Virus record (IMG/VR): IMGVR_UViG_3300025120_000759
Span: 1 to 20,026 of that record
DNA: 20,026 nt
Origin: a virus
Strand: one strand, 5' to 3'
Shown: piece by piece, positions 11,259 to 19,660 of the stretch
Numbering within the stretch: position 1 is the stretch's first letter
Layout of the letters: the number at the start of each line of letters is the position of its first letter
Notes under the pieces: generated by a model
Databases searched by the model: none
What the model was told of the DNA's origin: nothing
Seen by the model: the letters and a program-made list of their open reading frames with translations, nothing else
Position numbers and translations under genes: made by a program

Positions 11259-12743
11259 TTACTTCATTAACATGAAGTTGTTAGCACCTTGTGTAATTAA
11301 ACATCTCTCAGTTAAGAAGTGTAGTTGCATTGCATCTAAAGCAGATGTAGCAGCTCCTACAGATCCTGTAACCCAAGACTTCATTCTACGATCATCAGTT
11401 TGTGAAGCTCTGTAACGTACGTGTAAGAACGGACGCTTAATAGAAGCTCCAACAGTTTGATCATAAACAGATGAAGAACCAGCAGGAATTACAACCCCTC
11501 TGATTGCGTTAGCACCAGCAGCATCGTTGATACCACCACGAGTAGCTTTGTCGTTTAAGTAACGGAAGTCAGACTTGTAAAAGTCGTAAGATCCTCTACG
11601 GAAACCAGAAAAGCCTAAGTTTAATGCCATATCTTCAGAGTTGTTGAATACACCGTAAGATGTACCACCAGCACCGTAAGAGTTCATAGAAGCTAACATA
11701 TCATCCATAGCTAGAGACGTAGCTCTATTTACAAACATCATGTTTTCTTCAATAGCACCTTGCTTGTCAAATTCAGCTAAGATAGCATCAAATTCAGCTA
11801 AGTCAGTTGCAGCGTTAACACCAGTAACACCAGTAGTAACATTACCTCTTGATTCAATAGCAGCGAATAAACCTTGAGTACCAACTGAATCACCAGCTGT
11901 TCCTAAGAAGTTATCCACTTCATCAGTACCGTGAACACCAAGCTCACCTTCTAACATTGCCATTTCAATGTAATCAGTAAATCTTGCTCTTGTGTCAGCT
12001 TCAGCTTTTAAATACCATAAGTAACCACCTTGTCCAGCTTCAGTAGAAACCTCTACCCAACCAATACGAGATGCATCTGATCCAGATACTTCGTAGTAAT
12101 CTTTCATGATAATTGGCTTATTGCTAAAAGACTTGAAAGAAGGCTCGTTAGCTCCTCTTGTGTCAGCTTCAGCTGCAAGTGGAGAAAGGTATTTTTTACC
12201 TTTAGCGTACTCAGAACCGTAAACTAATACTACTAAGTCAGTTTTTGCGTCAGTAATTGCAGCACACGTCGCTACACCATAAGGTGCAACGTCTATAACG
12301 TCAGCAGCAACTTTAATAACTAAAGCTTTAATAACTGCTTCTGGGTTAGAAATAATAACAGTGTCATTAACTCTAATACCATGACTAGATGCAGTATAAG
12401 TTGCACCAGTATCAATGTGATCAGTAATAGTAATCTGACCAGCTGTAGATGTACCACCATTGTTGTTAGTCATCGTAGCTGTGTAAGATAAATGCAAGCG
12501 ACCTTGCTCAGACCAAACAACTTGATCAGCTGTCATTGCCTCTTCAGCACCTACTTGTGAAAGAAAACCTGAAATGGTACGAGGACCAAATACTTCAGCT
12601 TCTTTCTCCATTAGGTCTGGTAAATATTGTTGCGCCCAACCTTCATTCGCGGTTGCCGCAAGATCTAGATAGTTTGTTGCTAACGTCTGCTGTATTACAG
12701 AAGGCGTGCTGTTCAACAAACCACCGGGATTTGAAATTGCCAT
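11259..12743 (-). CDS. Major capsid protein (494 aa)
   Basis: The ATG at 12743 is preceded by an A/T-rich leader (TTTTAAATT) with no Shine-Dalgarno site. The N-terminal region (NYLDLAATANEGWAQQYLPD, residues about 25-45, then FGPRTISGFLSQVGAEEAMT, about 52-72, and VVWSEQGRLHLSY) resembles the opening of crAss-like major capsid proteins as I remember them; those are close to 490-500 aa. Ala/Gly-rich turns and alternating strands follow, ending in HVRYRASQTDDRRMKSWVTG and NNFMLMK. The position after portal and scaffold-like genes, and immediately before a strong terminator, fits the most abundant virion protein. Codon choice appears shifted toward C-ending codons (TTC, TAC, AAC, GAC) compared with neighbours. 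An HK97 fold is expected for the family but cannot be shown here. Confidence 0.85.
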   Translation of the reverse strand: MAISNPGGLLNSTPSVIQQTLATNYLDLAATANEGWAQQYLPDLMEKEAEVFGPRTISGFLSQVGAEEAMTADQVVWSEQGRLHLSYTATMTNNNGGTSTAGQITITDHIDTGATYTASSHGIRVNDTVIISNPEAVIKALVIKVAADVIDVAPYGVATCAAITDAKTDLVVLVYGSEYAKGKKYLSPLAAEADTRGANEPSFKSFSNKPIIMKDYYEVSGSDASRIGWVEVSTEAGQGGYLWYLKAEADTRARFTDYIEMAMLEGELGVHGTDEVDNFLGTAGDSVGTQGLFAAIESRGNVTTGVTGVNAATDLAEFDAILAEFDKQGAIEENMMFVNRATSLAMDDMLASMNSYGAGGTSYGVFNNSEDMALNLGFSGFRRGSYDFYKSDFRYLNDKATRGGINDAAGANAIRGVVIPAGSSSVYDQTVGASIKRPFLHVRYRASQTDDRRMKSWVTGSVGAATSALDAMQLHFLTERCLITQGANNFMLMK

Positions 12744-12770: not shown

Positions 12771-13964
12771 TTATTTTCTATTTTTAATTTTAAACTTAAA
12801 ATCAGAAGAGTTGTCGCCTAATACTTTAACTTTCACTCCACCAGTGTTAATTGGTCCTGTAAACTGTTGTCTTGGGTCCATGTTAACATTTTTAGATTTA
12901 GCAACGCTCTCCTTGAGTGCGTCAGCTTTACCTTGCTCGTAGAAATGTTGCGCTATAGCGTCAGCATTCATAGCTGTATATAAACTTTTATGATAACCTT
13001 TAGCGTCTGACATTGTATTATCTTCGTTCAAAAACTTTTTGACAAAGTTGTTAATGTCGCTTTGGGTATCTTTAACAGACTCAGAGTTTTTAACATTATA
13101 CCTAAACCTTTTATCTCCAACATTGTATTCAAAACCTTTGAAGTCTTTGTTGAATAATTGATTAGTTTTATTTAAAAACGTTTTGTGCTGTTTTTCAGCT
13201 ACTTTATTATTGTCTTCCGACTCCTTGTTATATCTATTAAAGAAATCAACCGCTTTCTGCTGCTCTACTGTGAGCTTGCTTCCAGCCTTGATGTCTTCAT
13301 AGTATTTGGATTTTACACTTTCCAAGTGGTTCTTTGCTTGAGCAACTTGCTCTTTCAAAGCTAATTTTTTTCTTCTTATATCTCTTTGCTCGTCCTCTTC
13401 TTCGTCGTAAGAAAATTGATCTTCCATCATGAAGTCTATTTCTTCTAAGTCTAGATGAGGTTTAGTTTGCTTATAGTATTCTCTTAGTAAAGACAAACTG
13501 TCAAAGTCAGAGTAATCTTGATTTAATCTAACGTAGTCTTGTATGTCTCCTCCAGTATCTTCCATAAAGTCTACTAACTTTTGGATATTCTCTGGTAATG
13601 GTTTGCCAGTCTCTTGAGCTTCAGCTATTGCTTCTTCTACTTCTTCAGTAACTTGCTCAACTTCTTCGTCTGTTATTTCTTGAACAGTGGGTTCATCATC
13701 TTGAACGGCTTGCTCTTCTTCTCTGGCAGGTTCTTCAACTTGCTCTTCGACGTTTTCTTCAAGTACTTCTTCGCTAGTTTCGGATTCGTCGCGAACAGGT
13801 ACCTCATCTGTGCTTTGCTCTCTAGTGGCATCTTCTTCTATACTTTTACTTAAATCTACTTTGATTACACTGTCATCGCCAGCGCTTTCAAATTTACTTT
13901 CATCAACTGTTTCTACAGTTTGTTCTTGTGTAGTCTCATCAACTACGTTTTCATTTTCTTCCAT
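12771..13964 (-). CDS. Acidic scaffold-like head assembly protein (397 aa)
   Basis: The gene sits between portal and major capsid genes, the usual place for a scaffold. The ATG is at 13964. Residues 1-125 are dominated by Glu, Asp, Thr and Val and are surely disordered. Residues about 125-185 (ENIQKLVDFMEDTGGDIQDY; LLREYYKQTKPHLDLEEIDF) look folded and helical. Residues about 190-260 are a highly charged, coiled-coil-like stretch (RRKKLALKEQVAQAKNHLES). The C-terminus is basic (DFKFKIKNRK), which could bind the coat, as basic C-terminal ends do in other scaffolds. Length, charge and order all suit a scaffolding protein, but no protease domain is visible here or in adjacent genes. A minor head protein with a disordered tail is the alternative. 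Confidence 0.65.
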   Translation of the reverse strand: MEENENVVDETTQEQTVETVDESKFESAGDDSVIKVDLSKSIEEDATREQSTDEVPVRDESETSEEVLEENVEEQVEEPAREEEQAVQDDEPTVQEITDEEVEQVTEEVEEAIAEAQETGKPLPENIQKLVDFMEDTGGDIQDYVRLNQDYSDFDSLSLLREYYKQTKPHLDLEEIDFMMEDQFSYDEEEDEQRDIRRKKLALKEQVAQAKNHLESVKSKYYEDIKAGSKLTVEQQKAVDFFNRYNKESEDNNKVAEKQHKTFLNKTNQLFNKDFKGFEYNVGDKRFRYNVKNSESVKDTQSDINNFVKKFLNEDNTMSDAKGYHKSLYTAMNADAIAQHFYEQGKADALKESVAKSKNVNMDPRQQFTGPINTGGVKVKVLGDNSSDFKFKIKNRK

Positions 13965-13985: not shown

Positions 13986-16409
13986 TTATTTAGGTTCAAA
14001 AGCACCTAAATCAAATCCACCTCCAAGTATATCATTACCTGAAGATTCAAAGTTTTTAGGTGGTTTGCCTGATTGACGTTGATCTATTAACTCGCTTTGT
14101 TGTGAAGCTTGTATTTTAGTTCTCTCGTCTTTTCTATTTTCTTTAGCATCTTCTCTAGCTTTTAAGTTAGAAGAGTCTATAGATCTTAATTGCATGTTAT
14201 ATTGAAACTCTTGTTCCATTAACTGCGCTTTCAAAGCTGCATCAGCTTGCATTTTTTGAGCATCTAGTTGAGCTTGCATTTGAGCTAGCTGAGCTTCTGC
14301 TTGTTTTAACGCTTGTTGTTTTTGTATTTCAAGTTGAGCTTGTGCTTGTTGAGATTGTGTGTTAGCTTGAGCTTGCGCTTGTATATTTTGCTGCTGCATC
14401 ATTTGATCTCGCTTAAGCTTTTTACCTCTACGTATTTTAAGTAGTTGGTTAGCTAGCTTAATGTTCTTTATATCTCTAAGATCTATAGCATCTTCAAGAT
14501 CTATTATCTTCTGTGCTAATGCTTGCTGTATGTTATTTTCAAGTATTGCTTTTTGCTCGTCATCCGGCGCTAGCTCTAAGAATATTCCAAAGTCATACAA
14601 GTGTAGCTCTGACATTTCTTGCAGTGTAGCAACATTGTGCACACCTATACTTTGTATGAACGCTTCTTTAGTAGGTGAATATTCTATTATATCTGATATT
14701 CTTAATGATAAGCACTCACATACTTCTGCTGTTAGAAATAAACCAGAGTTTAATATATGTCTTGTAGCAGTATTACTATTAGCTGCAGCTAGTTTTTGCA
14801 CACCAACTAAAGCTCTTTGATCAGGCATACTTCCATCACGCGCTTCGTTGAGCCCGGTTACGTCGCGTATCATCTGAAGATAATAGTTATAATTACCGAT
14901 TAAAGCTTGTAGCTTGTTTCCGCCAGATCCAGAAGTTATTTCTTGAATAGGTACTTTACCAGGATTCATATCACCTTCTGAAGTAAAAGATCTACCGATA
15001 ACAGAACCTGTTTGGAAGAACATATTTAAAGCTTCTTGCGGATTGTAGTTCGTGCCATTACCTAAGTCTACTTCAGCTAAGCCATCAGCATCTAAGTAAA
15101 CGCCATCAGGCACCATGCGTGACATTACTTGCTGTAGCTTCAAGTGCGTTAGCTGTATCATATCAGCAAAACCTGTAATACGCTTTACTAATGATTCAAT
15201 TTTACCTTTATACATCCTTGGAGCTACAATACTATAGTTCATTTTAACTTTAGTAAAGTTGCTTTTAGGACGCATCATGTTTTCAGACATTTCCCACTTA
15301 AGTAGCTTGTTTGTGCCTAAGATTAAAGCACCTTCATACAATGTTTCAATAGCTCTTTCTAATTTTGAAAAATTACCTTCAACACCTTCAGGTGGATTAA
15401 AGCTGTCATCTTTTTCTATAAGCTTGTCTGCGCCGCTACCTGTTTCTTTTACTTTGTACACTTCGTTCATGTACGTCTTATAATTAAAATATAAAACTTG
15501 AACTTTGTTAAGGTCTATGTCTTCATATCTTGGTCCTGAATTATAAGAATTAGATCTTTGTGGATAACCTGATTGTTGTATTTCTTCTAAATCTTCTTGC
15601 GATAAGTGAGGAAACTGCTTTACAAGCTCATTAATAGGTATAGTTTTAACTTCACCAACATAGTATATATCATCAAAATATGGAGACTCAGTATAAGAAT
15701 AAACTAAGTCTGCTGGATCAACATAATCTACAGTAACACCTTCTGATGTTGTAAAATTACTTTTAACAGCAGCTATACCTAAAACTGTTAGATCGTAGTA
15801 TAATTGTCTTTTTATTAACTCGTAGTTATTACCATCTAGTAAAACATTGATAGCTTGCTCTTCTGCTATTTCTACTGCTTGCTTGTAAGTTAGCTGCATG
15901 TGCAACTCTAGCTCTTCTTGCGTTTCAGGAAGTTTATCAGGATCGTTTTGATATAGATTTATACCAAACTCTTGAGCAGCAAAATCATTCATTTCTTTAG
16001 TAGCCATATCTCCAAGTACACTTTCCATGTACTCAGTTCTTTTTGCTACGCCATAAGGATCTTGTGAATATGCTTTTATGTCAAAAGCTCTGTCTGCAAT
16101 ACCGTTAACAACTATGTCTACAAACTTAGGTATTATTGGAACAGGGCTCCAATCTAAGTTTAAGTAGCTTAAGTCACCGTTTATAGATAACTCATCTTTA
16201 TATTTTTGTATAGACTGTTCGCCTCTAGCGTACAACCTTAAATTATGAAAATTATTAAAGTTTGCGTCATATCTAGTGTGACTTCTATTGTCGTAAAACC
16301 ACTCTGTCTCTATTGCTTTAGCAACCTTTAATCCGTAGTCGTAACTTAGCTTTTCAGCATCACTAACTACTTGACTTGGAAAATAACTTTTTATAACAGA
16401 CTCTGCCAT
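13986..16409 (-). CDS. Portal protein (807 aa)
   Basis: The ATG at 16409 follows the terminase stop by 3 bp; terminase then portal is the standard phage order. The N-terminal region contains aromatic, charged helices (YDNRSHTRYDANFNNFHNLR; DLSYLNLDWSPVPIIPKFVD, about 75-95). A central part has DYVDPADLVYSYTESPYFDD (about 230-250), a membrane-free 'wing'-type alpha/beta domain. Near residues 520-550 a MIRDVTGLNEARDGSMPDQR segment looks like the conserved portal stem/crown region. Residues about 668-740 are almost pure Gln/Ala/Leu heptads, a long helix resembling the C-terminal barrel of P22-type portals, which are also large (P22: 725 aa). Crass-like portals are about this size. The protein should form the dodecameric DNA gate at one capsid vertex. 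The last 25 residues are Gly/Pro-rich. Confidence 0.85.
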   Translation of the reverse strand: MAESVIKSYFPSQVVSDAEKLSYDYGLKVAKAIETEWFYDNRSHTRYDANFNNFHNLRLYARGEQSIQKYKDELSINGDLSYLNLDWSPVPIIPKFVDIVVNGIADRAFDIKAYSQDPYGVAKRTEYMESVLGDMATKEMNDFAAQEFGINLYQNDPDKLPETQEELELHMQLTYKQAVEIAEEQAINVLLDGNNYELIKRQLYYDLTVLGIAAVKSNFTTSEGVTVDYVDPADLVYSYTESPYFDDIYYVGEVKTIPINELVKQFPHLSQEDLEEIQQSGYPQRSNSYNSGPRYEDIDLNKVQVLYFNYKTYMNEVYKVKETGSGADKLIEKDDSFNPPEGVEGNFSKLERAIETLYEGALILGTNKLLKWEMSENMMRPKSNFTKVKMNYSIVAPRMYKGKIESLVKRITGFADMIQLTHLKLQQVMSRMVPDGVYLDADGLAEVDLGNGTNYNPQEALNMFFQTGSVIGRSFTSEGDMNPGKVPIQEITSGSGGNKLQALIGNYNYYLQMIRDVTGLNEARDGSMPDQRALVGVQKLAAANSNTATRHILNSGLFLTAEVCECLSLRISDIIEYSPTKEAFIQSIGVHNVATLQEMSELHLYDFGIFLELAPDDEQKAILENNIQQALAQKIIDLEDAIDLRDIKNIKLANQLLKIRRGKKLKRDQMMQQQNIQAQAQANTQSQQAQAQLEIQKQQALKQAEAQLAQMQAQLDAQKMQADAALKAQLMEQEFQYNMQLRSIDSSNLKAREDAKENRKDERTKIQASQQSELIDQRQSGKPPKNFESSGNDILGGGFDLGAFEPK

Positions 16410-16412
16410 ATT

Positions 16413-18629
16413 TTATTTTATTATTGTAGATGTATATCCTTTATTATCGTATGTTGATACGTTTACATTTAACTTTGGTTTTACTCTTGTAGGTGTTGGT
16501 GTGTAAAGGTGTCTGTTGCAAGCCATTATAGCTAAACCTGAGCTTATAGTTGCATCAAACTTAGTTCTTTTATTAATATCAAATCTAGACCAATCATTTA
16601 GCGTCTCATTAAAATATATATTTCCATAAACACCATCGCCTCTATGACCTACATGTCCTTGTATGTACATCTCGATTGCAGCAGCGTGAGCTTGCTTTAT
16701 GTCTTCACTAGAGTTTGGTATACCACCTATTTCTTTTTCAGCAACAGAAAGCTTGTTCCAAGTTTTGTCTGGTCTGTTCATACTAAAGCCTCTATATCCT
16801 CTTCGCTTTAAATAGTATAGTAATCTTGGCTTATTGTTTTCTGCTAGTATTGGCATGCCGTAAAAAACTAATGACATTAAAACATCTTCAAAAAATATCT
16901 CTGCAGTTTGTGGTCTAGCTATATATTCTAAAAACATATGGTTTGGCGGAGCGTCTTCCATTGAAAACTTTGTTAATCCATGTAGTGATCCTTTAGAACC
17001 TTTGCCACCAACAGTACCACTAATGTCGTAGCTGTCACAACCAAAAGCTCCAACGTGTTCGTTACCAGGATGTTTAACTCCATTTTTTACTATTATTTTA
17101 TTTTGCAAATGACTTGGCGGCACCCAGCTTATTTTAAATCTACCTTTTGCGTTAGGGTAAAATATAACGCTACTGTCTTTAACACCGTCTAACCATTGAA
17201 AATTACCGGTTGTAATAGCATTGTCATTACCGATACCTTCATTGTAATCTATTTGCTCGTATATCTTAACTAAATTAAATATACTATTTTTAGCTTCATC
17301 TCTAAAAGCGTGCTCTTCTGTTCTTGGAAACTGGCGGTAAAATTCATTTAAACCATCTTGGTCTCCTTTTAAGCCATCAGCTTCGTTATTCCAATGATCA
17401 ATTATACCATAGTCAATTAATTCACCGTCGGGTCCGTATACATCATGATCTGGGTTATTAAATACAGGTTGTCCGTATTCGTCAATAAATCCTTCATAGT
17501 TCCATTCCATTGGGATAAACAAAGAATATAAACCAGACTTTGTTTGTCCATTGCGGTTTCTAGAAGTGACATCTGAATCATTGTACAGCTTTTTAAAATT
17601 ATCTCCACCTTTATCAAGAGCGTTACTCGTTGATCCCATCATACACTTACCAACTATACGAGCACCTAGCCTTAAACAAGTTTTAGTTACTCGCCAGTTG
17701 TTTAGAATATTATCAGGTCTCTCCCACTTACCGCTTTCATCATGCACTAACAAGCTGAGCTTTTCACCATCATAACTGTTGTCTCCAGTGTTTTTCCAGT
17801 CAATAGTAGTATCAAGTCCAACCAGCTCTTCCTGCTTTTCGTTCGTAGTAATTTTTCTACGCGTAAACTTACTTGCAGGAACCCTATAAGCAAGTTCACT
17901 TTTAGGTCTGTCCATACCGTCTTGTATCGGTTTAAAGAAAAACGGATAGTTGACAGATATTGGTACAACTTTATCGGTAAACATTTTTTTAGCATCACCA
18001 CCACTTTTAGATAGTATTCCATATCTAGAGTCACTCGATATAGTAGCTAAGTTAACGGTTTCAGCTGAAGACATAAAAGAAAAACCACTACGTCTGTTTT
18101 TTAAATAACACATGCCGTAGCAGCGTTTGTCTGCTTTACACGCTTCCCAAAATATAAAGAACAATCTGTTAGCTTCTCTAAAGTCAGGAGCACCAACATC
18201 TATTTTACTCCATTGAAGATACATATAGTGGCTGCCAGTTATGTATGTAGGCTCATTGTTATTCATGAACCAAAAACCTTCGTCACGACGTTTAAACTCT
18301 TCGTCTATATAGTCGTACCACTGCTCTTTAGACTCTTCTGGATACGATCTCCAATCAAATATGTTTTTTAATTTACCTAATTCTTTAGGATACTTTAGTC
18401 TTTGCCATTTTCTTTTAGCTGACAAATACACTGATTTCGGTTCAGACGGCAGCCCAATTCGCAAACCTTGAATCTCCACCACTTGTCCAATTTTTCCAGT
18501 TTTTGATATAACGACAATATCATGTTCTTTATTGTATCCATACTCCCATTTTTTAGATTTGTTAAGCCGACTAATAGTAGTCTTTTTAACAGGTTCAACA
18601 ATTTTATATAGTGTTTGCTCGCTTATCAT
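16413..18629 (-). CDS. terL: Terminase large subunit, DNA-packaging ATPase/nuclease (738 aa)
   Basis: The ATG at 18629 overlaps the upstream TGA (ATGA). Motor motifs are visible in order. A deviant Walker A, KNRRSGFS (177-184), has its Lys at the front, as in lambda gpA (KSARVGYS), rather than the usual GK[ST]. Walker B is LSLLVHDE (291-298) with D297 and E298. A coupling motif MGSTSN (331-336) follows. The C-terminal nuclease region has FGCDSYDISG with D532 as first metal ligand, acidic candidates E577-D582 (EIFFED), and a late TKFDATISSGLA segment with D692. An N-terminal 150 residues with YITGSHYMYLQW resemble crAss-like terminases. The enzyme cuts concatemeric DNA and pumps it through the portal. 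Length is at the high end for the family but complete. Confidence 0.93.
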   Translation of the reverse strand: MISEQTLYKIVEPVKKTTISRLNKSKKWEYGYNKEHDIVVISKTGKIGQVVEIQGLRIGLPSEPKSVYLSAKRKWQRLKYPKELGKLKNIFDWRSYPEESKEQWYDYIDEEFKRRDEGFWFMNNNEPTYITGSHYMYLQWSKIDVGAPDFREANRLFFIFWEACKADKRCYGMCYLKNRRSGFSFMSSAETVNLATISSDSRYGILSKSGGDAKKMFTDKVVPISVNYPFFFKPIQDGMDRPKSELAYRVPASKFTRRKITTNEKQEELVGLDTTIDWKNTGDNSYDGEKLSLLVHDESGKWERPDNILNNWRVTKTCLRLGARIVGKCMMGSTSNALDKGGDNFKKLYNDSDVTSRNRNGQTKSGLYSLFIPMEWNYEGFIDEYGQPVFNNPDHDVYGPDGELIDYGIIDHWNNEADGLKGDQDGLNEFYRQFPRTEEHAFRDEAKNSIFNLVKIYEQIDYNEGIGNDNAITTGNFQWLDGVKDSSVIFYPNAKGRFKISWVPPSHLQNKIIVKNGVKHPGNEHVGAFGCDSYDISGTVGGKGSKGSLHGLTKFSMEDAPPNHMFLEYIARPQTAEIFFEDVLMSLVFYGMPILAENNKPRLLYYLKRRGYRGFSMNRPDKTWNKLSVAEKEIGGIPNSSEDIKQAHAAAIEMYIQGHVGHRGDGVYGNIYFNETLNDWSRFDINKRTKFDATISSGLAIMACNRHLYTPTPTRVKPKLNVNVSTYDNKGYTSTIIK

Positions 18630-18904
18630 TTAGATCTTCCTTCAGCAAATCCTTTAAATACTTTTTCTTTTTTATCTTCAGGCTCTTTACCTTCTAATAT
18701 ATTCTCTTCTTCTTGTACACGGTTAAGTATTTCAAAAGCATCAAATATAGCTAGCTTTTTTGTAGCTGCTGCGTTTTTTAATCTATCAGCAGAAACATCT
18801 TCTTCAGTATTAGTTATAATTTGCTCTTCTGCAACTTTAATTAATTCATCAACAGCTTTACGCCCAGCTAGGATTATACGCCTCTTCGTCTCCTTGATAC
18901 TCAT
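18626..18904 (-). CDS. Candidate terminase small subunit (92 aa)
   Basis: The ATG at 18904 is the only Met codon in the frame, so the start is firm, and it makes a 47-bp overlap with the end of the 193-aa gene. The protein is short and helical: ETKRRIILAGRKAVDELIKV, then a SADRLKNAAATKKLAIFDAF-type helix (about 39-58), an acidic segment, and a basic tail (FKGFAEGRSK). It ends in an ATGA junction with the large terminase, so the two are probably translated in coupling. Small size, helical make-up and position directly before terL fit a small terminase, which recognises DNA and regulates the motor. I see no clear helix-turn-helix, so the call rests on order and composition. Confidence 0.5.
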   Translation of the reverse strand: MSIKETKRRIILAGRKAVDELIKVAEEQIITNTEEDVSADRLKNAAATKKLAIFDAFEILNRVQEEENILEGKEPEDKKEKVFKGFAEGRSK

Positions 18905-19439
18905 ATTTAATTGTAATAAATTTATTTAAAACGCGGTATAGCTTAGTATTATCTATTATAAACTCGTATGTTGAAAAAGGTGTAAAGCCAACAAGCTCGC
19001 CAATATCATTTACACCGTCAGTATACTTGACAATACCTACGCACTGCTCTTCGACTTCTTCAGCAAGATTATTTCTTTGCTTTATAGGCTGAACAAAACA
19101 GTAGCCATTACAAGCTTTCCAATTGTCCTTTGACTTGTAAAGAAATATTTGATCTTCACTAACTATATAAGTGTCTTCATCAAAAAAAGCTTTACTGTTT
19201 TTTTCATTACCGTACGTATCATGCCATCTTCTGAAGACGTTATGATGTACAATGACGGTATCACCAACTCTTATATTTGTATCAAAAGCTGTAGGCGTAG
19301 CTTTAACCACGGCTTGCCTATTGACAAACTCATGGTTAAATATTTCAGAATTTAATATTAAATCTGAATCGCCAACTTTTTTCACGTTGTTGTATCTATT
19401 ACCTAAAGGCTCTATTACAAAACTATGTGTAGCTTTCAC
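18858..19439 (-). CDS. GroES-like co-chaperonin candidate with two GroES-like halves (193 aa)
   Basis: The GTG start at 19439-19437 shares one base with the TAG of the 73-aa gene; no ATG lies upstream before an in-frame stop. The N-half (1-105) follows the GroES layout: a FVIEPLGNRY strand (7-16), a DLIL stretch (26-29) where GroES has the IVL mobile-loop tripeptide that grips GroEL, an AVVKATP strand, VGDTVIVHHN (58-67) matching the GroES VGDxV strand, and DTYIVSEDQIFLY (89-101) matching the C-terminal YLIMxExDILA strand. The C-half (107-182) repeats the pattern: GYCFVQPIK, CVGIVKY, IGELVGFTPFSTYEF, KLYRV, ITIKYEY, but with a short loop. T4 gp31 is a known phage GroES analogue that helps fold its capsid protein. 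The family call is my alignment by eye. Confidence 0.6.
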   Translation of the reverse strand: MKATHSFVIEPLGNRYNNVKKVGDSDLILNSEIFNHEFVNRQAVVKATPTAFDTNIRVGDTVIVHHNVFRRWHDTYGNEKNSKAFFDEDTYIVSEDQIFLYKSKDNWKACNGYCFVQPIKQRNNLAEEVEEQCVGIVKYTDGVNDIGELVGFTPFSTYEFIIDNTKLYRVLNKFITIKYEYQGDEEAYNPSWA

Positions 19440-19660
19440 TAATACTCTAAGTTGTATTCAACTGAAACAGCCATATTCTTATTAAAGTCTTTCCAAGGTA
19501 ATACATCTTTGTTTTTTCTAATATAAACAGAAAACTTATCTTTTTCTTCTATAATATCACAAATAGTATGACCACCGTAAACTTCTTGCCCAACAGCATA
19601 GTGCATAGCTTCGTTCTTATAGTCTTTACCTATACTAATCTTTCTTATCAGCTTTGCCAT
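19439..19660 (-). CDS. Small unknown protein (73 aa) between coiled-coil and GroES-like genes
   Basis: The ATG at 19660 overlaps the end of the 99-aa gene by 26 bp; there is no closer start that would preserve the MAKLIRKISIGKDYKNEAMH beginning. The protein has short alternating strands (AVGQEVYGGHTICDIIEEKD, KFSVYIRKN) and ends KNMAVSVEYNLEY, suggesting a small beta-sheet fold. It has no Cys pair, membrane helix or catalytic motif. It lies in a run of overlapping early-in-operon genes leading to the terminase, so it is probably coexpressed with the packaging block. From memory, very similar short proteins accompany comparable marine phage clusters; the function is unknown. Confidence 0.7.
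   Translation of the reverse strand: MAKLIRKISIGKDYKNEAMHYAVGQEVYGGHTICDIIEEKDKFSVYIRKNKDVLPWKDFNKNMAVSVEYNLEY

Follow-up and report, generated by a model that had tools for sequence, protein, structure and literature searches.

The window analysed here is a whole virus record, a fragment of 20,026 bases, and the gene under study occupies positions 18858..19439 on its minus strand. This gene starts with GTG and encodes a protein of 193 aa, of which residues 1–123 match phrog_13932 (E 5.7e-16), named 'co-chaperonin GroES', in a PHROG scan. The coordinates of the original prediction are correct; the strand, which it did not name, is minus. The product is predicted to consist of an N-terminal GroES domain (residues ~1–105, 19125..19439, minus strand), recognised by a structural match to human Cpn10 4pj1_U and by a phage GroES profile, and a C-terminal GroES domain (residues ~106–181, 18897..19124, minus strand), recognised by a match to GroES 4pkn_W, by a bacterial GroES profile and by Pfam Cpn10 in some relatives. 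The mobile-loop region of the N domain (residues 12–40, 19320..19406, minus strand; based on 229 distinct homologs) contains the hydrophobic tripeptide LIL (residues 27–29, 19353-19361, minus strand). The shortened loop of the C domain corresponds to residues 121–134.

The tandem gene is part of a minus-strand morphogenesis cluster in the order 99-aa gene, 73-aa gene, tandem gene, 92-aa gene, terminase large subunit (TerL), portal, 397-aa gene, capsid candidate and further virion proteins. The 73-aa gene of unknown function (19439..19660, minus strand) and the tandem gene share one base, between the stop of the former and the GTG start of the latter, and may be translationally coupled. The 3' end of the tandem gene, which encodes the tail YNPSWA, overlaps the start of the next gene by 47 nt (18858..18904, minus strand). 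This next gene (92 aa, 18626..18904, minus strand) lies between the tandem gene and TerL; it gave no family match and is small-terminase-like by position only. The gene order thus agrees in part with the original prediction, which put the tandem gene directly before the terminase genes: the position in the cluster holds, the directness does not, since the 92-aa gene intervenes and the tandem gene stands one gene before TerL.

TerL (16413..18629, minus strand; phrog_6681, E 4.3e-170; 84.7 kDa) is followed by the portal protein (13986..16409, minus strand; phrog_6547, E 4.4e-157; 91.4 kDa) and, between the portal and virion structural protein genes, by a 397-aa scaffold-like gene (12771-13964, minus strand). 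A virion structural protein of 52.8 kDa (11259..12743, minus strand; phrog_13704, E 2.9e-97) is, from its position, the probable major capsid protein and a candidate substrate. Another frame within the 397-aa gene holds a 52-aa ORF (13673-13831, minus strand), which begins MPLESKAQMRYLFATNPKLAKKY and matches phrog_1375 (E 7.2e-6); a similar ORF is present in 11 loci at hand, making it a candidate overlapping gene. The record stops ~0.6 kb upstream of the tandem gene, and no Pfam Cpn10 match was found anywhere in the window; a GroEL–GroES pair of this phage would be located beyond its end. Judging from its relatives, the phage probably infects Bacteroidota in an aquatic habitat.

Occurrence of the gene and its neighbourhood in relatives

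The tandem ORF is a real gene. With the window protein as the query, at least 596 of the 600 listed IMG/VR pattern matches encode a relative, and with an alignment of 24 sequences as the query at least 589 of the 600 listed do so. Further scans gave 20 relatives among 23 matches (Elemovirus protein), 4 among 8 (phi38:1) and 540 among 545 (Manatee-Spring protein, MW202828). The reading frame is open across the matched stretch in all 80 homologs of the first scan, and dN/dS against five relatives is ~0.07–0.13. The phage collection contains 78 matching records, including 68 Flavobacterium phages and 7 Cellulophaga phages; phi18:3 lies outside the reach of this search and is linked via PHROG 13932 and the fold. 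A match to an Aminobacter tail protein (E 0.1, 52% covered) was regarded as chance. The alignments used in this work (24, 54 and 58 sequences) were assembled by hand from the available loci so as to be diverse.

Several contigs with the tandem gene (L258, L265, L268, L269, L271, L272 and L277) are found in MAGs labelled Maricaulis, Woesearchaeota, Pseudomonadales, Aliivibrio and Aenigmatarchaeota, one of them (L271) within a 1.05-Mb 'chromosome' record. Occurrence in MAGs labelled Aliivibrio, Maricaulis or archaea was set aside, these being probably misbinned phage contigs.

The set comprises 268 tandem loci, of which 267 are given on the plus strand and 240 of these have at least 1.2 kb downstream. 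TerL lies within 1.05 kb downstream in all 240. The distance is 1,044 bp in L059 and 1,014 bp in L257; these two loci have an added gene (L059:1250-2059, 270 aa; L257:8821-9600, 260 aa) that separates TerL from the 92-aa gene. A profile of the 92-aa gene matches 235 ORFs, including phi18:3 gp097 (E 2.2e-7). It also matches the N-terminal extension of TerL in phi38:1 (E 1.6e-6) and, weakly, in Elemovirus (E 0.07), where a homolog of the 92-aa gene may have been fused to TerL.

A GroEL gene and a small GroES gene are located upstream in all 30 window-type loci that have at least 5.9 kb of upstream sequence. The pair lies within the flank in 29 of them and, in L035, 0.6–2.3 kb past the flank edge (record G003). 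The GroES of these loci (85–86 aa) overlaps GroEL and is found 2.6–6.6 kb upstream of the tandem gene. Elemovirus carries its GroEL–GroES pair ~5 kb upstream on the other strand, and in phi38:1 the pair is far from the tandem gene. Among 30 records of all types GroEL is present in 24 and single-domain GroES in 25, tallies that are not independent because some records are near-identical. The five records with neither gene (L006, L032, L060, L080 and L109) say little, because their contigs end 0.8–4.6 kb upstream of the tandem gene. Single-domain GroES also occurs in phi18:3 and Panino. The layout of phi18:3 (Pachyviridae) is the same: GroES gp080, tandem gp096, 99-aa gp097, TerL gp098 and portal gp099. 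No GroEL match was found in the complete phi18:3 genome or in the record of L165 (G022, 72.8 kb), both of which have the tandem gene and GroES; GroEL there would therefore be that of the host.

Public labels of the family members (PHROG 13932, Elemovirus, phi38:1, phi18:3, Maribacter Panino) are 'co-chaperonin GroES', cpn10 or hypothetical. According to the accessible parts of the respective papers, 'chaperonin cpn10' was listed among Pervagoviridae core proteins by Bartlau et al. 2021 (PMC8776804), GroEL was reported in 36 of 78 genomes of the phi38:1 group by Nishimura et al. 2017 (PMC5332604), homologs of GroEL and GroES were noted in Panino (PMC11590407), and some phages are said to carry both GroEL and GroES (PMC7185714). 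The novelty suggested in the original prediction is accordingly partial. The family has already been annotated as GroES/cpn10; a phage tandem GroES with a two-domain, one-loop design is not described in the literature searched, as far as its accessible text goes and with most subscription journals outside its scope. The linkage to TerL in 240 of 240 loci and the upstream GroEL and small GroES in 30 of 30 window-type loci are new here.

Predicted fold and sequence of the two domains

An AlphaFold model of the window protein was built on the 54-sequence alignment (mean pLDDT 77.0, pTM 0.71). Its loop-region block means are pLDDT 58–67, and only the tail 181–193 falls below 50. A second model, of an Elemovirus relative (L143), was built on the 58-sequence alignment (mean pLDDT 81.4, pTM 0.74); its residues 19–35, at the position of the mobile loop, are below pLDDT 50. 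The two models are not wholly independent, because their alignment rows are mostly common to both. Each is mainly beta, with strands at the positions that the original prediction named.

In a Foldseek search against the PDB, 7ekq chain R (E 6.4e-5), a chain labelled as Cpn20 co-chaperonin subunit, is the sole match of the window model with E <0.001; the next ranks are Cpn10/GroES chains and 7ekq chain Q. The best match of the Elemovirus model is also 7ekq_R (E 7.6e-6, TM 0.63/0.59). VIA-align superposes the window model on 7ekq_Q over model residues 1–179 (Z 10.1, rmsd 4.2, 153 aligned) and the Elemovirus model on 7ekq_R over 1–180 (Z 10.8, rmsd 3.9, 157 aligned). A comparison with viral models aligned the window model to the 200-aa phi18:3 Cpn10 across 202 columns (TM 0.72/0.69). 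A GroES beta-barrel is predicted in each domain: the N half (1–105) matches human Cpn10 4pj1_U (Z 8.0, rmsd 2.5, 83 aligned) and the C half (106–181) matches GroES 4pkn_W (Z 8.7, rmsd 2.5, 75 aligned). The match of the window model to gp31 (1g31_A) has Z 5.7. The aligner cautions that Z 7–8 can reflect merely a common arrangement, and the GroES reading was accepted because of the whole-length matches with Z >10 together with the sequence tests. The predicted structures thus contain two Cpn10 domains joined head to tail in a single chain, and for neither half of the window model does an unrelated fold rank above GroES. The outcomes that the original prediction named as refuting it were thus not observed.

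Profile comparison was performed with hhalign, and scores were judged against those of column-shuffled GroES profiles (200 shuffles). The bacterial GroES profile included six sequences: five from MAGs with phage contigs titled Bacteroidota and that of E. coli. The C half aligns to it with a probability of 92% and a score of 34.1 (shuffles 10.6 +/- 2.0, z 11.8, 0/200), and to 18 phage GroES with z 2.6 (4/200). The N half yields z 5.5 with phage GroES (0/200), z 4.8 with bacterial GroES (0/200) and z 5.0 with the joint set (1/200); its hhalign probability is 4–9%, and it is the shuffle control alone that lifts it. Each half therefore exceeds the shuffled profiles in its best comparison. The closer affinity of the C half to bacterial than to phage GroES may be a weak hint at a fusion of two lineages. 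Compared with each other, the two halves give z 2.8, with 6 of 200 shuffles as good; the origin of one half by duplication of the other is therefore not claimed.

Pfam gave no match in either half of the window protein, and a profile of single-domain GroES scores 2.7 bits on it. In relatives the signal of this profile is higher: both halves of phi18:3 gp096 are matched (10.5 and 27.2 bits), the Elemovirus protein scores 13.4 bits in the N half and 2.7 in the C half, and L165 and phi38:1 score 20.3 and 14.0 bits in the C half and −0.9 and 1.6 in the N half. Pfam Cpn10, with a cut-off of 21.1 bits, is exceeded on the C half of L165 (26.0–26.4), of phi38:1 and its near-identical record G021 (24.1) and of phi18:3 (32.6–33.3). 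At E up to 0.1, 12 members of the 58-member alignment match Cpn10 and 7 match the unrelated family MJ0548_C (best E 0.013). A PDB profile search by sequence with 24 homologs returned no GroES and two unrelated matches (E ~0.5); the fold claim therefore rests on the models and the profile–profile tests. Taken with the whole-length matches to CPN20/CPN23 (PDB 7ekq) and Pfam Cpn10 in relatives, these tests bear out the two GroES-like domains in tandem that had been proposed. The details named for each half are likewise present: in the N half the loop DLIL and the strand VGDTVIVHHN, and in the C half the strands GYCFVQPI, VGIVKY, IGELVGF, KLYRV and ITIKY in this order.

Loops were counted in 269 sequences (the 268 loci and that of the window), which collapse to 229 distinct ones. 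The N loop is 26–30 residues long. Position 27 is L/F/I/M/V in all 229, position 28 is I/V/L in 227 (A in 2), and position 29 is L/V/I/F in 214 (T in 15); the tripeptide is LIL in 109, FIV in 40, LIV in 26 and LII in 15. The absence of a long mobile loop from the second domain, as first described, is borne out across the family: in 225 of the 229 sequences the corresponding stretch of the C domain is 14–16 residues long, and a run of three I/L/V/F/M residues occurs there in just 11. Four sequences (L165, L166, L164 and phi38:1) have C loops of 24–25 residues, and that of L165, KMIGSIIVPNSGETHKG, strongly resembles a GroES loop. The C-domain loop may therefore be ancestral and may have been lost in the lineage of the window. 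The models and the alignments together support two GroES-type domains with a long loop in one alone.

The roof stretch was counted between hand-picked anchors, beginning where the loop-exit strand starts and ending at the G of the GD-type motif that follows. Its length is 18 residues in the N half and 13 in the C half, compared with 25 for E. coli GroES, 20 for gp31 and 17 for the L003 phage GroES. No hairpin strands were seen at this stretch in the window model, where it is shortened in both halves; the GroES roof hairpin is thus missing from both halves in the model and the alignment. Twenty residues are conserved at ≥97%, including R15, Y16, N18, R41, P49, D60, HHN 65–67, Y158–F160 and Y168, and none of them lies in the tripeptide. 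The tripeptides of the two co-chaperonins in one locus display no informative covariation, because the most frequent combination is LIL with LIL. A role of the tail YNPSWA as a binding peptide was weighed and rejected: its conservation is explained at least partly by the second reading frame in the 47-nt overlap, and it is not present in the Elemovirus, phi38:1 and Manatee-Spring-type homologs.

Chaperonin partners and known co-chaperonins

Residues D52, D87 and D398, which we take to be the catalytic residues of GroEL, are kept in all 42 full-length phage GroEL ORFs. Among the positions that presumably contact the loop, all 42 ORFs have L/I/V at 237; position 234 carries Q in 28 and L in 9 of them, and position 259 carries K in 26. 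The groove of phage GroEL thus appears to be altered at two loop-contact sites (L234 to Q, L259 to K), and this counts against the co-chaperonin reading. In phi40:1, MS/MS virion annotations are given for gp087, gp091–093, gp095 and gp097–101 and are absent on gp089 (the tandem protein) and gp090 (TerL).

The closest structural analog is Cpn20 of chloroplasts and apicoplasts, which also has two Cpn10 domains head to tail and matches over the whole length. Plants and algae likewise possess single-domain Cpn10 alongside it, as the consulted part of PMC5780408 states. The differences concern loops and roofs. Both domains of apicomplexan Cpn20 keep the mobile loop and roof (PMC3542282, in the portion seen), and the domains of Arabidopsis Cpn20 have roof loops (PMC4242682, likewise in part), whereas the phage protein, which is not plastid, lacks the long loop in its C domain and the roof in both. 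Loop and roof in both domains, a trait described for apicomplexan Cpn20, are therefore not found in the window protein. Roof absence is not specific to gp31, since Arabidopsis Cpn10(1) and Cpn10(2) are described as roofless too in the available text.

T4 gp31 is a phage co-chaperonin as well, with a loop ESGLII (NC_000866) in register with DLIL. It is roofless, and its capsid protein substrate of ~56 kDa is comparable to the 52.8-kDa candidate here; gp31 is believed to open the cage for this substrate, gp23 (PMC6318259, in the sections available). It differs in being a single domain that uses host GroEL, whereas most tandem relatives bring their own GroEL and GroES. Bacterial GroES and the 84–86-aa GroES of these phages share the barrel of each half and the GroES-type loop of the N half; they are single-domain, and the window protein has diverged too far to be recognised by Pfam Cpn10. 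The nearest relatives (PHROG 13932, phi18:3 gp096, phi38:1 gp089, Elemovirus, Panino) are of the same size, ~180–200 aa, and lie 0–1 gene before TerL; they differ in the C-domain loop, which is longer in phi38:1 and L165 and in L165 still GroES-like.

Single- and two-domain co-chaperonins are able to cooperate. As far as the accessible text of the sources goes, Cpn10 and Cpn20 form working hetero-oligomers (PMC4242682, PMC3542282), Arabidopsis Cpn10(1) is functional solely together with Cpn20 (PMC4242682), and mixed rings of seven domains in Chlamydomonas and Arabidopsis are recounted in PMC3542282 and PMC5780408.

Proposed function and alternatives

The tandem protein is best interpreted as a two-domain co-chaperonin serving phage morphogenesis (probability about 0.72). 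We infer this role and its link to capsid folding from the adjacency of TerL and portal, the upstream GroEL and GroES and the lack of a virion annotation. GroEL binding, ring composition and substrate could be envisaged as follows. Two GroES domains would be joined head to tail in one co-chaperonin chain; the hydrophobic tripeptide of the N-domain mobile loop would engage the GroEL apical groove, and the C domain, with its barrel kept and its long loop lost, would act as ring wall. The agreement of both models with the Cpn20 arrangement makes it probable that the domains lie side by side in one ring. The lid would be open at its top, as in T4 gp31, because neither domain has a roof hairpin, and an open lid would suit bulky substrates, for instance the probable capsid protein of ~53 kDa.

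The ring could be completed by the single-domain GroES of the phage: three tandem chains and one GroES would give seven roofless domains with four GroEL contacts, a private chaperonin set. This 3+1 ring is suggested by the CPN20/23-like arrangement, the accompanying single-domain GroES and the seven-fold barrel; its basis is arithmetic plus analogy, and we offer it tentatively, with the odds clearly against it. If it is true, the domains without a loop would keep apical sites available to a large capsid-protein substrate while it is being encapsulated. Work by Nojima in 2008 reportedly implies that a lid with four loops may not suffice to encapsulate a substrate.

A doubtful but still appreciable alternative is a ring formed without single-domain GroES, as a trimer or tetramer of tandems or as seven chains stacked into a two-storey lid over a taller cage. 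It concerns the ring only, and its odds fall within the figure given for the two-domain co-chaperonin. Homo-oligomers of Cpn20 function in chloroplast and apicoplast systems, according to the seen portions of PMC5780408 and PMC4242682. A taller dome would suit TerL and portal, given their masses; stacking finds no support in the two models, both of which match the CPN20/CPN23 arrangement across both domains, and the single-domain GroES present in 25 of 30 records, phi18:3 and Panino speaks against an own ring. The protein could also have ceased to be a chaperonin and become an assembly or packaging factor (acting, for example, with small terminase or portal) that retains the GroES fold as a scaffold. 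The strict TerL linkage, the separate GroES–GroEL pair that window-type phages already possess upstream and the absence of the ≥97% conserved residues from the tripeptide all fit this, which we nevertheless consider unlikely: the tripeptide is hydrophobic in nearly all distinct sequences, and the Elemovirus model predicts a disordered loop, like that of free GroES.

Capping of the ClpP protease, by which host proteolysis would be modulated, is very improbable. It is suggested by the best structural match, which comes from a complex, 7ekq, whose entry title names ClpP; we take this to be the Chlamydomonas ClpP complex, and plastid co-chaperonins are presumed to cap ClpP. This match follows from the fold, because 7ekq is the listed entry that holds tandem co-chaperonins, and the upstream genes found are GroEL and GroES, in a search targeted at chaperonins. 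Hardly any credence is given to a resemblance of fold alone, in which the GroES-like barrel would be of the kind shared with medium-chain reductases and imply no kinship to GroES. Reductases do appear further down the structural lists; in that of the Elemovirus model, which has one row per entry, every row confined to the N half is a reductase or a related synthase domain (Z up to 5.9). This explanation is disfavoured by the rank of GroES chains above reductases in both models, by the profiles linking each half to GroES and by Pfam Cpn10 scores that clear the cut-off on the C half in some relatives.

As a two-domain co-chaperonin, the protein would extend to a widespread phage group a tandem GroES architecture that, in the literature accessible here, is otherwise described from plastids and apicoplasts, and it would add a one-loop twist to it. 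The family offers a natural system for two questions about chaperonins, namely what number of loops a lid requires and how chains with an even domain count can be accommodated on a seven-fold barrel. The proposal can be tested, since cultured phages have the gene (Flavobacterium Elemovirus; Cellulophaga phi38:1, phi40:1 and phi18:3; Maribacter Panino). The window-type phages, in which GroEL, GroES and the tandem protein are encoded in one cluster, may build an unusual mixed lid for capsid folding.
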